This document shows positions 36,517-46,734 of a stretch of DNA of 64,000 nt, in pieces. Origin of the DNA: Proteus vulgaris (lineage in GTDB: Bacteria; Pseudomonadota; Gammaproteobacteria; Enterobacterales; Enterobacteriaceae); NCBI RefSeq assembly GCF_033708015.1, contig NZ_CP137921.1, positions 1 through 64,000 on the forward strand. Reading direction: 5' to 3'. How positions within the stretch are numbered: the stretch's first letter is position 1; each line of letters begins with the position of its first letter. Made by a program: the position numbers and the translations under genes. The notes under the pieces are model-generated. The model was given only the letters and a program-made list of their open reading frames with translations. It was not told where the DNA came from and searched no databases.

Positions 36517-36548
36517 AGGAAGACGACCTGTTCGCGATCCTCGGCTGA
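36517..36548 (+). pseudogene. groES: groES 3' fragment
   Basis: The last ten codons of groES (KEDDLFAILG, stop at 36546-36548) start exactly at the end of IS26 copy 3. Its first eight bases duplicate the eight bases before IS26 copy 4, where the 5' part of groES ends. The two parts together make a normal groES. Confidence 0.85.
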
Positions 36549-36603
36549 TCGCGCGTCGCTCCCACACATTTCTCATCCGAATAATTTTTCGAGGTAATTC
36601 GCA

Positions 36604-38244
36604 ATGGCTGCCAAGGACATTCGTTTCGGCGAAGACGCGCGCTCCAAGATGGTGCGCGGCGTCAACGTGCTCGCCAACGCCGTGAAGGCGACCCTCGGCC
36701 CGAAGGGCCGCAACGTCGTGCTGCAGAAGAGCTACGGCGCGCCGACCATCACCAAGGACGGCGTCTCCGTCGCCAAGGAAATCGAACTGGCTGACGCGTT
36801 CGAGAACATGGGCGCGCAGATGGTGAAGGAAGTCGCTTCCAAGACCTCCGACAACGCCGGCGACGGCACCACCACCGCCACCGTGCTGGCGCAGGCGTTC
36901 ATCCGCGAGGGCATGAAGGCGGTCGCCGCCGGCATGAACCCGATGGACCTGAAGCGCGGCATCGACCAGGCGGTGAAGGCCGCGGTCGGCGAACTGAAGT
37001 CGCTGTCCAAGCCGTCGTCGACCAGCAAGGAAATCGCCCAGGTCGGCGCGATCTCCGCGAACTCGGATGCCAACATCGGCGACCTGATCGCGCAGGCGAT
37101 GGACAAGGTCGGCAAGGAAGGCGTGATCACGGTCGAGGAAGGCAGCGGCCTGGACAACGAACTCGACGTGGTCGAGGGCATGCAGTTCGACCGCGGCTAC
37201 CTGAGCCCGTACTTCGTCAACAACCAGCAGTCGATGTCGGCCGACCTGGATGATCCCTTCATCCTGCTGTACGACAAGAAGATCTCCAACGTGCGCGACC
37301 TGCTGCCCGTCCTCGAGGGCGTGGCCAAGGCCGGCAAGCCGCTGCTGATCGTGGCGGAGGAAGTCGAAGGCGAAGCGCTGGCGACCCTGGTGGTCAACAC
37401 CATCCGCGGCATCGTCAAGGTCTGCGCGGTGAAGGCCCCGGGCTTCGGCGACCGTCGCAAGGCGATGCTGGAAGACATGGCGATCCTGACCGGCGGCGTG
37501 GTGATTTCCGAGGAAGTCGGCCTGTCGCTGGAGAAGGCCACCATCAAGGACCTCGGCCGCGCCAAGAAGATCCAGGTGTCGAAGGAAAACACCACCATCA
37601 TCGATGGCGCCGGCGAAGGCGCGGGCATCGAGGCGCGCATCAAGCAGATCAAGGCGCAGATCGAGGAGACCTCCTCCGACTACGACCGCGAGAAGCTGCA
37701 GGAGCGCGTGGCCAAGCTGGCCGGCGGCGTTGCGGTGATCAAGGTCGGTGCCGCCACCGAAGTCGAGATGAAGGAAAAGAAGGCGCGCGTCGAAGACGCC
37801 CTGCACGCGACCCGTGCGGCCGTCGAGGAAGGCATCGTCCCGGGCGGCGGCGTCGCCCTGATCCGTGCCAAGGCGGCGATCGCCGGCATCAAGGGCGTGA
37901 ACGAAGACCAGAACCACGGCATCCAGATCGCCCTGCGCGCGATGGAAGCCCCGCTGCGCGAGATCGTGACCAATGCCGGCGATGAGCCGTCGGTCATCCT
38001 CAACCGCGTGGTCGAAGGTTCGGGTGCGTTCGGCTACAACGCCGCCAACGGCGAGTTCGGCGACATGATCGAGTTCGGCATCCTGGACCCGACCAAGGTC
38101 ACCCGCACCGCGCTGCAGAACGCCGCGTCGATCGCGGGCCTGATGATCACCACCGAAGCGATGGTGGCCGAGGCCCCGAAGAAGGACGAGCCGGCGATGC
38201 CGGCCGGCGGCGGCATGGGCGGCATGGGCGGCATGGATTTCTAA
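36604..38244 (+). CDS. groEL: GroEL chaperonin (Tn125 passenger)
   Basis: A 546-residue 60-kDa chaperonin: KDIRFGEDARSKMVRGVN at the start, the ATP loop DGTTTATVLAQ (about 87-97) and a C-terminal GGMGGMGGMDF tail. It is very GC-rich with a codon use unlike the plasmid; Tn125 groEL is known to be Xanthomonas-like. It is complete and preceded by GAGGTAATTCGC. A rho-independent terminator follows. Its own groES promoter region now lies 10 kb away, so expression may be low or come from outward IS26 transcription. Confidence 0.96.
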   Translation: MAAKDIRFGEDARSKMVRGVNVLANAVKATLGPKGRNVVLQKSYGAPTITKDGVSVAKEIELADAFENMGAQMVKEVASKTSDNAGDGTTTATVLAQAFIREGMKAVAAGMNPMDLKRGIDQAVKAAVGELKSLSKPSSTSKEIAQVGAISANSDANIGDLIAQAMDKVGKEGVITVEEGSGLDNELDVVEGMQFDRGYLSPYFVNNQQSMSADLDDPFILLYDKKISNVRDLLPVLEGVAKAGKPLLIVAEEVEGEALATLVVNTIRGIVKVCAVKAPGFGDRRKAMLEDMAILTGGVVISEEVGLSLEKATIKDLGRAKKIQVSKENTTIIDGAGEGAGIEARIKQIKAQIEETSSDYDREKLQERVAKLAGGVAVIKVGAATEVEMKEKKARVEDALHATRAAVEEGIVPGGGVALIRAKAAIAGIKGVNEDQNHGIQIALRAMEAPLREIVTNAGDEPSVILNRVVEGSGAFGYNAANGEFGDMIEFGILDPTKVTRTALQNAASIAGLMITTEAMVAEAPKKDEPAMPAGGGMGGMGGMDF

Positions 38245-38270
38245 GCCCCGCGATCCATCAAGCAAGACCA

Positions 38271-38300
38271 CAAAGCCCGGCCTCGTGCCGGGCTTTGTGC
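38271..38300 (+). terminator. Intrinsic terminator of groEL
   Basis: AAAGCCCGGC-CTCGT-GCCGGGCTTT hairpin 27 bases after groEL. Confidence 0.85.
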
Positions 38301-38432
38301 GTTCTGGCGTCCGAGGCGGGAGACTTCCTACCCGCCCCGCGGCAATGTCTGACGCGAAGATCAGAAAACGCCGATATGAACGCGTGCTCGCGGGCGCAAC
38401 CCTGAGCAGCCGTCCCTGCAACGGAGCGCTGC

Positions 38433-44898: not shown

Positions 44899-44908
44899 AT
44901 CGCGTCGA

Positions 44909-45940
44909 TCAATAGGCGTCGTTCAGCGCAAAGATCGGCTTGCGGGTGCGCCACTGCCCTCGGGTGAAGTCGGGAAAATCTAACGTGCGATTGCCCTCAG
45001 CAATCGATTGTTCCGACAGAGGCGTGATCGCGCTCCAGGCCAGCGCGTCGTAAATGTCGATTGGCATCGGGGCCTTGGCCTTCAGCGCCTCGACAAAAGC
45101 GTGGATCACGAACCAGTCCATCCCGCCATGCCCGGCCCCTGCCGCCAGATCGGCGTAGCGTTTCCATAGCGGGTGATCGTATTTCGCAAACCAGCCCTCG
45201 GCAGGCTCCCAGCGGTGCGGCTGTGGGCTCTTGCCCTCCAGATAGATCGACTTGTTGACGTCCATCCACAGCCCCTCGGTGCCTTGCACCCGAAAGCCGA
45301 GAGAATAGGGGCGCGGCAGCGAGGTGTCGTGGCACAGCATGATCGTTTCACCATTAGTGCAGCCGATCATGGTGTTGACCACATCACCCAGTGCGAATTT
45401 CACCTCGGCGTTGGGATGATCGGCAGAGCCGTTCTTGACGACATAATCATGCAGCCCGCGCGCCTTACAGCCGAAGCCGCCAGCGCCCGCTTCGCCCGGC
45501 AACGCGACCTTCAGGGTGCGGGTCTGCGGCGGGTAGCACACGCCGGCATCGGCGCAGCCCTGGTACTTCACGGTCAGGGTGGTCGCGCTCGCGCCGGCCG
45601 CGGGCGTGCCGGTGAGGGTGCCGAGCAATTCCTTGCGGTAGGTTTCGACGTCGCCGAAGAATTCGTCGCGGTAGGCCTTGCCCTTCAGCAGCGCCATGGT
45701 CGCGCCGGTGAAGGCGGCATCGGCCTTGACCGAGGTGCGGTGCCGGTACAGGTAATAGCCGTCGGCGATCCGCCAGCGCACCTCGATGCGGTCCGGCGCG
45801 GTGGCCTGCGCGGACAGGACGAAGACCTCGTCGACCGGCGGCAGTTCGAAGTCCTGGGCGACGGCCGAGGTCGCGGGCAGCGCAAGCAGCAGGGCGAGCC
45901 CGGCCAGCCAGCGGCGCAGGCGGATCGTGGATGCGGTCAT
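44909..45940 (-). CDS. Chimeric ORF: DsbD N-domain fused to GH109-like oxidoreductase C-part
   Basis: A 343-codon open frame built of two unrelated halves. Residues 1-~155: signal peptide (LLLALPATSAVAQ) and a DsbD-alpha domain with the CADAGVCYPPQT redox pair (about 129-140). Residues ~156-343: the C-terminal half of a twin-arginine-exported Gfo/Idh/MocA-type GH109 protein (ARGLHDYVVKNGS, GGMDWFVIHAFVEALKAKAP, DIYDALAWSAITPLS). The first half matches Xanthomonas-like neighbours (cutA, groESL) and the second matches trpF's source. The join (about 45470-45490) is in frame. In Tn125 it is listed as truncated genes. Activity is unlikely but a periplasmic product is possible. Confidence 0.8.
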   Translation of the reverse strand: MTASTIRLRRWLAGLALLLALPATSAVAQDFELPPVDEVFVLSAQATAPDRIEVRWRIADGYYLYRHRTSVKADAAFTGATMALLKGKAYRDEFFGDVETYRKELLGTLTGTPAAGASATTLTVKYQGCADAGVCYPPQTRTLKVALPGEAGAGGFGCKARGLHDYVVKNGSADHPNAEVKFALGDVVNTMIGCTNGETIMLCHDTSLPRPYSLGFRVQGTEGLWMDVNKSIYLEGKSPQPHRWEPAEGWFAKYDHPLWKRYADLAAGAGHGGMDWFVIHAFVEALKAKAPMPIDIYDALAWSAITPLSEQSIAEGNRTLDFPDFTRGQWRTRKPIFALNDAY

Positions 45941-45944
45941 TGGC

Positions 45945-46274
45945 TCAGTTTACCGGTCGGCTCTCGGCGGCCAGCCATTGCAGGTATTCGGGCAGGCCGG
46001 ACGCGGCTTCGACCGCGAGCAGCTCCGGGAGTTCGTAGGGATGCAGTTGGCGCAGGCGTTCCTGCAGGGCGGGGTAGGCCTCGGCACTGGTCTTGACCAG
46101 CAGCAGGACCTCGGCCGCGGCCTCGACCTTGCGTTGCCAGCGATAGACCGAACGCAGGCCGGGCAGGAGGTTGACGCAGGCGGCCAGGCGCTCGGCCACC
46201 AGCGCGGTGGCGATGCGCTCGGCGCTGTCGGCGTCGGGACAGGTGCAGAAGCAGATCAGGGCGCTCACCGGCAT
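45945..46274 (-). CDS. cutA1: CutA divalent-cation tolerance protein
   Basis: A 109-residue trimeric CutA1 protein: FCTCPDADSAERIATALVAE, LAACVNLLPGLRSVYRWQ, EVLLLVKTSAEAYPAL and HPYELPELLAV. The start at 46274 was chosen by family length; an open extension upstream is not conserved. It ends five bases before the chimeric dsbD gene, in the same operon orientation. Called dct in Tn125 maps. Confidence 0.92.
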   Translation of the reverse strand: MPVSALICFCTCPDADSAERIATALVAERLAACVNLLPGLRSVYRWQRKVEAAAEVLLLVKTSAEAYPALQERLRQLHPYELPELLAVEAASGLPEYLQWLAAESRPVN

Positions 46275-46467
46275 AGGGTAGCGGCTGCCCCGATCCGGCG
46301 GGCCTGGCGGACATCCGCGTGCGGCCCTTGAAAGTCGGCGGGCCCGCCCCATCTCGGTGGCATGCCGGGTTCGCCCGGTTCTGTTGTCCGCGGTTTGGCA
46401 CTCGCTTCGCGCGACTGCTAAAATCGCCGGGTTTTTCCACGTCAATCAACCATTTACCGAGGTTGCC

Positions 46468-46734
46468 ATGTCCAATATCAAGCCGCTGCACGACCGCGTG
46501 GTCATCAAGCGCATGGAAGAAGAGAAGCTGTCCGCCGGCGGGATCGTGATCCCGGATTCGGCCACCGAGAAGCCGATCAAGGGCGAAGTCGTCGCCGTCG
46601 GCACCGGCAAGGTGCTGGACAACGGCCAGGTCCGCGCGCCGCAGGTCAAGGTCGGCGACAAGGTGCTGTTCGGCAAGTACAGCGGCACCGAAGTGAAGCT
46701 GGACGGCGTCGAGCTGCTGGTGGTGAAGGAAGAC
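46468..46734 (+). pseudogene. groES: groES 5' part, cut by IS26
   Basis: Eighty-nine codons of the co-chaperonin: KPLHDRVVIKRMEEEKLSAG with the start of the mobile loop, then GTGKVLDNGQVRAPQVKVGD and LLVVKED, where IS26 copy 4 begins. The missing ten codons are at 36517-36548 beside groEL. The last eight bases (AGGAAGAC) are the target duplication. Confidence 0.92.

Follow-up and report, generated by a model that had tools for sequence, protein, structure and literature searches.

A blaNDM-1 unit in permuted Tn125 order, probably captured as a circle at a resident IS26 of an IncC plasmid

Tn125 and the permuted blaNDM-1 segment

The closest described relative of the blaNDM-1 region analyzed here is transposon Tn125, which in plasmid pNDM-BJ01 (NC_019268) lies between two terminal, directly oriented copies of the insertion sequence (IS) ISAba125 and is recognized by 3-bp direct repeats outside its ends (PMC6737455; papers are cited here for the available portions of their texts). 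A second point of reference is the cointegrate of the IS6 family, whose two IS copies divide between them the flanks of the donor and the newly formed target repeat (review PMC7986276). Circles and tandem copies generated by IS26 or ISCR1 are treated in the available portions of PMC8407110, PMC12049837, and PMC8386438, and a captured Tn125 circle is not. The locus described here is a 10,218-bp segment (36517-46734) between the third and fourth IS26 copies of a 64-kb stretch of Proteus vulgaris DNA (positions 1 to 64,000 of contig NZ_CP137921.1, hereafter the window), which is part of an IncC conjugative plasmid.

The segment reads groES 3' end, groEL, ISCR27, pac remnant, ISAba125, blaNDM-1, ble, trpF, dsbD-type chimera, cutA, and groES 5' part, which is the order of Tn125 closed on itself via one ISAba125 (Table 1). 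Its genes and internal junctions are like those of Tn125 in pNDM-BJ01, with two mismatches over 5,168 bp and one over 3,852 bp. Unlike Tn125, the window has one internal ISAba125 rather than two terminal direct copies, the order is rotated, and the edges are formed by IS26 in groES; neither an ISAba125 end nor the 3-bp repeats of Tn125 were found at either edge. The permuted order is most simply derived from a circle with a single ISAba125. We therefore propose, at a probability of about 0.87, that the segment represents a circularly closed, ~9-kb Tn125 unit containing a single ISAba125, which was opened within groES and inserted into the IncC plasmid at a resident IS26.

A sequence-only reading of this DNA had already described Tn125 order permuted via a single ISAba125, and the gene order read in the segment bears this out. 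Its gene list was right in order and incomplete in content, as it passed over the IS5 that splits the ISAba125. An IS5 insertion shared with IncX3 plasmids was ruled out, since the IS5 of pNDM-HN380 lies at a different place and in the opposite orientation.

Target repeat in groES and the empty site

The octamer AGGAAGAC was read at both inner edges of the segment, to the right of IS26 copy 3 and to the left of copy 4, as the sequence-only reading had stated when it set the two groES parts against these copies with an 8-bp duplication. In the intact Tn125 of pNDM-BJ01 (locus L015), the groES flanks of the window were located at 12594-12728 (5') and 12721-12854 (3') and overlap by exactly 8 bp. 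This exact overlap was found in the uninterrupted copies of all five records tested (L011, L012, L015, L017, and L018, in both units of the last). If sites are assumed to be uniform, two unrelated insertions of the same orientation in a 9,012-bp unit would overlap in this way with a chance of ~1/18,000.

Among the best 5000 of 72,556 PLSDB records, each IS26/groES junction was covered in five, all of this plasmid lineage (K. pneumoniae twice, E. coli, K. quasipneumoniae, and Hafnia alvei). The left junction was present in none of 20,395 E. coli genome records at 80% coverage, and its exact 28-base sequence had no match in the genome contig collection; the window's own record was possibly excluded from the collections searched for junctions. 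Across 394 genomes of the order, blaNDM was found in the window's own genome only, where blaNDM-1 has one copy, besides one 26-base match taken as chance.

The state before insertion is preserved in IncC relatives that lack blaNDM. Plasmid p1-7008.20 (NZ_CP082989; K. pneumoniae, Bern, IncC, 174,853 bp) was compared over the 64-kb window, with high-scoring segment pairs (HSPs) below 300 bp omitted. It showed no differences from window 1-25000, two mismatches and one 5-bp gap against 25000-36516, and no differences over the 17,266 bp of 46735-64000. In place of copy 3, the unit, and copy 4, p1-7008.20 has a single IS26 between the octamers CAAATTTA and GTTTATTC; apart from the two mismatches and the 5-bp gap, the window thus differs from p1-7008.20 only by an additional 11,038 bp, which correspond to the unit together with one IS26. 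Plasmid pMB9306_2 (NZ_CP103514, Texas), which also lacks blaNDM, has this single IS26 as well, in reverse orientation. A single IS26 with the same outer octamers in NDM-free plasmids indicates that a resident IS26 was the insertion point of a closed Tn125 unit opened in groES. Such incorporation had been proposed from the sequence, and these empty-site plasmids supply the start state that could then only be assumed. The NDM-free IncC state of the Bern and Texas records can also be taken as the acceptor that gave rise to this multi-species plasmid.

The window carries four IS26 copies, at 29756-30575, 31588-32407, 35697-36516, and 46735-47554, of which copies 2, 3, and 4 are direct and copy 1 is inverted. 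Copies 3 and 4 are both intact, directly oriented, and without difference over 820 bp; as copies 1 and 2 match them too, this identity is weak evidence for a cointegrate. An unpaired IS26 left end lies at window 34686, within the qnrS1 region. Window 25000-64000 is matched without difference over 39,001 bases by CP137447 (K. pneumoniae 2022JQ-00762, USA, 185,591 bp, IncC), and the sister plasmid CP137451, at 188,036 bp, is ~2.4 kb longer than the other plasmids of the lineage.

Table 1. Features of the blaNDM-1 unit and its edges in window coordinates
Feature	Position	Strand	Basis
Outer left octamer CAAATTTA, adjoining IS26 copy 3	35689..35696	.	Present left of the single IS26 in NDM-free p1-7008.20; reversed in pMB9306_2
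IS26 copy 3, 820 bp	35697..36516	-	Both ends located; identical to copy 4
AGGAAGAC, left inner copy of 8-bp duplication	36517..36524	+	Sequence read; right of IS26 copy 3
groES 3' end	36517..36548	+	Sequence read; flank present in uninterrupted Tn125 copies of five other records
groEL	36604..38244	+	Open reading frame (ORF) list and annotation of CP137447
ISCR27 transposase gene	38469..39962	+	IS91 family in CP137447 annotation; ISCR27 name taken from Tn125 papers
pac (acyltransferase) remnant, between ISCR27 and ISAba125	40173..40457	-	ORF list; 'putative acyltransferase' at the homologous place of MN657242
ISAba125, first 989 bp	40696..41684	+	Match to pNDM-BJ01 ISAba125
IS5 within ISAba125, CTAG on each side	41685..42878	-	Sequence read and CP137447 annotation
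ISAba125, last 98 bp, end just upstream of blaNDM-1	42883..42980	+	Match to pNDM-BJ01 ISAba125
blaNDM-1	43074..43886	+	CP137447 annotation
ble-MBL	43890..44255	+	CP137447 annotation
trpF	44260..44898	+	CP137447 annotation
dsbD-type chimera ORF	44909..45940	-	ORF list and comparison with MN657242
cutA	45945..46274	-	CP137447 annotation
groES 5' part, interrupted by IS26	46468..46734	+	Sequence read; flank present in intact Tn125 copies
AGGAAGAC, right inner copy of 8-bp duplication	46727..46734	+	Sequence read; left of IS26 copy 4
IS26 copy 4, 820 bp	46735..47554	-	Both ends located; identical to copy 3
Outer right octamer GTTTATTC, adjoining IS26 copy 4	47555..47562	.	Present right of the single IS26 in NDM-free p1-7008.20

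The same signature in other blaNDM plasmids

Both unit edges were examined in 22 blaNDM records (loci L009-L019, with L020 from the record of L016; L021-L030; and L033 with L036). The records were hand-picked, by accession and from the top of similarity lists obtained with queries containing IS26 or the closure, and are enriched for IS26-edged or permuted forms, so that the counts given here are not frequencies. HSPs below 40-60 bp were left out of the edge tables, and IS26 matches to the right copy were omitted in one of them.

An IS26 end at both edges together with equal 8-bp sequences was found in 14 of the 22 records, at five sites. The groES site (AGGAAGAC) is represented by CP137447, the ISAba125 site (AAAAAAGA) by the German plasmids MN657250 and MN657242 (L010 and L021), and the ISCR27 site (CACGAAAG) by pNDM-32 (LN833432, L013). 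The other two sites lie in the pac tail: TAAAAACG was found in nine records (AP025013, CP098374, CP135256, AP018581, CP028588, OL964513, CP043383, MZ156804, and AP018566) and ACTGAACC in CP145911 (L019), which carries two units and three IS26 copies. Since Tn125 itself contains ISAba125 twice, gene conversion might have put IS26 into both copies, which makes the ISAba125 site ambiguous. No such ambiguity attaches to the remaining four IS26 sites or to the Tn21-family site described below, because pac sequence there lies upstream of ISAba125-blaNDM. In the German IncC units (L010 5181-17040, and L021), the two IS26 edges fall on one and the same 8-bp stretch of ISAba125.

In all nine TAAAAACG records (L014, L022-L029), the left IS26 is broken and Tn5403 sequence adjoins its remaining end. 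The site is common to nine records, which span several genera and replicon types, and thus has the appearance of a single founder event. Some of these records have further IS insertions inside the unit. The tandem units of CP145911, a Providencia huaxiensis plasmid (L019 5559-26058), are both IS26-edged and share ACTGAACC, with IS26 in the orientation opposite to that of the window. Several records have their IS26 edges close together in the pac tail, within ~70 bp (circle coordinates 40368-75, 40390-97, 40412, 40425, and 40438), in an AT-rich stretch (67% AT, 40201-40695), which may reflect target preference or repeated reshaping of one site.

One permuted Tn125 unit is bounded by other elements. 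In p16Pre36-NDM (KX832927, L017 9663-18760), the unit lies between two transposon ends, which by name we take to be of the Tn21 family, and AATAG is present at both edges; the 5-bp reading rests on the edge sequence. It is as if a circle had been captured by a Tn21-family transposon. Tandem Tn125 arrays were found in two of the 22 records, CP010373 and CP096343, that is, in p6409 (IncC, Colombia; L016/L020) and in PROV081 (Providencia, L018), and such arrays could be a source of the circle. Four of the 22 are linear and not permuted (MN240794, NC_019162, NC_019268, and LC591943). An Ottawa C. freundii IncC plasmid (L036/L033) with the same qnrS1-IS26 module carries a permuted NDM unit beside another IS26 of the module; 25 bp are missing between the edges of this unit, and upstream of its blaNDM lies an ISAs1-type element.

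With the closure as query, the best 25 of 5000 records comprised five of this lineage, CP145911, CP010373, KX832927, and CP096343 at 76%, pNDM-32 at 68%, and 15 IS5-bearing NDM records at 66%. A wider E. coli search for permuted units returned, among the best 20 of 4,107 records, NDM records of the IncX3-like IS5 kind only.

The closing ISAba125 is of more than one sequence type. Six sites separate the two copies of pNDM-BJ01, which read GCCATC (left) and ATTCCT (right). Type ATTC|TC was found in the window, pNDM-32, and CP145911, whereas ATTA|TC, a mix of the two pNDM-BJ01 copies, was found in both complete p6409 copies in L016 and in CP135470; the p6409 copy in L020 has frameshifts. Type GCCATC characterizes the TAAAAACG lineage, KX832927, PROV081, and, read across two halves, the German plasmids. 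Crossovers between copies at different positions, and a closed unit that arose more than once, would fit these mixed types.

Origin of the unit and relation to known systems

The proposed route would begin with the release of a circle containing one ISAba125, either by recombination of the two ISAba125 direct repeats of Tn125 with each other or by recombination among the units of a tandem Tn125 array. The resident IS26 between CAAATTTA and GTTTATTC would then attack groES in the circle, a step whose start state and product were both observed. Replicative cointegration would open the circle, copy IS26, and duplicate the 8-bp target, leaving the unit between two identical direct IS26 copies with AGGAAGAC on the inner side of each copy and the old flanks on the outside. 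The window agrees with a replicative cointegrate with a circular target in its 8-bp repeat at the inner edges, its donor flanks outside, and its identical IS26 copies. IS5 also entered ISAba125 at some point. The resulting IS26 pseudo-compound transposon is expected to be capable of leaving again as a unit that includes one IS26, and as copies 3 and 4 are direct repeats, excision through them is plausible.

Several points weigh against this account. The circle is inferred from the permutation only, and neither a free circle nor a long-read junction was seen. The ISAba125 type of the window is also that of the right-hand copy of a linear Tn125 (L011) and is therefore no proof of a crossover. 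One of the 22 records, CP135470, is permuted and bounded by an IS26 on one side and by a fragment of IS26 on the other, but it has no 8-bp repeat and instead lacks 25 bp of the pac tail. An empty site for pNDM-32 (LN833432) was absent from the 25 matches listed per search, and none was sought for the other sites. In addition, the product alone cannot tell copy-in cointegration from conservative insertion of an IS26-bearing circle. The latter follows the order envisaged in the sequence-only reading: IS26 would first enter groES of a circular or tandem unit elsewhere, and this translocatable unit would next join the resident IS26 by conservative insertion. The product it described stands, but two events are not required, as one copy-in cointegration with circular Tn125 gives the same structure. 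This order, which keeps the circle, is a serious possibility at somewhat under even odds: the targeted conservative reaction beside an existing IS26 is reported to be ~100-fold more frequent (review PMC7986276), and the two IS26 copies of the MN657250/MN657242 lineage (L010/L021) differ at two bases (207-208), which speaks against simple copy-in for that lineage. It needs one extra event and an IS26-bearing groES precursor, however, and no such precursor was found in the searches described above, for both junctions in PLSDB and for the left junction in E. coli. We lean toward one-step copy-in cointegration, on parsimony and without proof.

Tandem Tn125 arrays are known on an IncC plasmid (p6409) and in Providencia (L018), and IS26 might have entered groES in such an array, with the unit duplicated by unequal crossing-over and the outer units lost through IS26-mediated deletions. 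This alternative, also raised by the sequence-only reading, has been weakened and appears unlikely: the outer IS26 flanks are base-identical to those of the NDM-free IncC plasmids, a state that the deletions would have to recreate exactly, so that no deletion of array remnants is needed, and several events would be required per case, and the signature occurs at several sites. Elements of the IS91 type move by rolling circle, and ISCR27 lies within the unit; its transposition is nevertheless a very improbable source of the permutation, and was rejected on the unit edges, which are IS26 with target repeats and not ISCR ends. Moreover, the ISCR27-pac-ISAba125 and ISAba125-blaNDM stretches are both as in pNDM-BJ01, and the sole new closure runs via ISAba125. 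An assembly error at repeated IS26 could be suspected from the presence of four copies and an additional IS26 end inside 18 kb, but it is hardly credible given the agreement of the window's own genome with five PLSDB records from four named species, the identity to CP137447, and the exact target repeat at the junctions.

Capture of circular Tn125 by IS26 may thus be a recurrent route of blaNDM-1 between plasmids. On balance, we favor the broader view that circle capture is a general and overlooked blaNDM route, in which ISAba125-closed circles without an IS26 of their own are repeatedly released and captured at scattered sites by IS26 (four unambiguous sites) or a Tn21-family transposon (once), leaving a readable target repeat. 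If this is true, the TAAAAACG pac-tail capture would have founded the Tn5403-associated NDM units found in multiple species; where a country is given for their records, it is Vietnam or China. The origin of an 'IS26-flanked Tn125' can be tested at the sequence level by comparing its two inner edges: if, in circle coordinates, the edges share 8 bp, a single capture accounts for both copies of IS26, and the position of the cut marks the lineage. The chemistry of IS26 is already known; recurrent capture of Tn125 circles across plasmid types is undescribed in the searchable literature, where no title or abstract opening states it, and a prior description is possible in subscription IS26 papers, which lay outside this scope.

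Among known systems, the IS26 pseudo-compound transposon, or translocatable unit, is like the window in holding its passenger between two direct, intact IS26 copies at a formerly single-IS26 site. The passenger of the window differs in being a closed composite-transposon unit, recognizable by its permutation and inner 8-bp repeat. The 'Tn125-like' element of a German outbreak (MN657250 and MN657242; PMC6929489) likewise consists of a Tn125 unit with IS26 edges on IncC and shows an exact 8-bp repeat, AAAAAAGA, but it was opened in ISAba125 and its two IS26 copies are not identical. These structures were read as IS26 integrated into each of two ISAba125 copies (PMC6929489); judging from the edges, one event can replace the two published insertions.

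The Tn5403-associated NDM unit (nine records, e.g., AP025013, CP043383, and CP028588) shares IS26 edges, permuted order, and an 8-bp repeat, TAAAAACG, with the window, and differs in that it was opened in the pac tail and its left IS26 was broken by Tn5403. A similar 14.6-kb IS26-bracketed region of a blaNDM-4 plasmid was presented as a potential composite transposon (PMC5762679). Counted round the unit, the TAAAAACG site lies ~7,512 bp from the blaNDM start, in agreement with an IS26 hotspot placed ~7,500 bp downstream of blaNDM (PMC8894482); the pNDM-HN380 edge (window 40425) is also near. Finally, p16Pre36-NDM (KX832927; PMC6737455) resembles the window in that its Tn125 unit is permuted and bears identical short repeats at its two edges, although its edges are two Tn21-family transposon ends and its repeat is 5 bp long. 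Its arrangement was ascribed to complex recombination events (PMC6737455). For structures that two papers, in their available portions, put down to separate insertions or complex recombination, circle capture offers a simple account.

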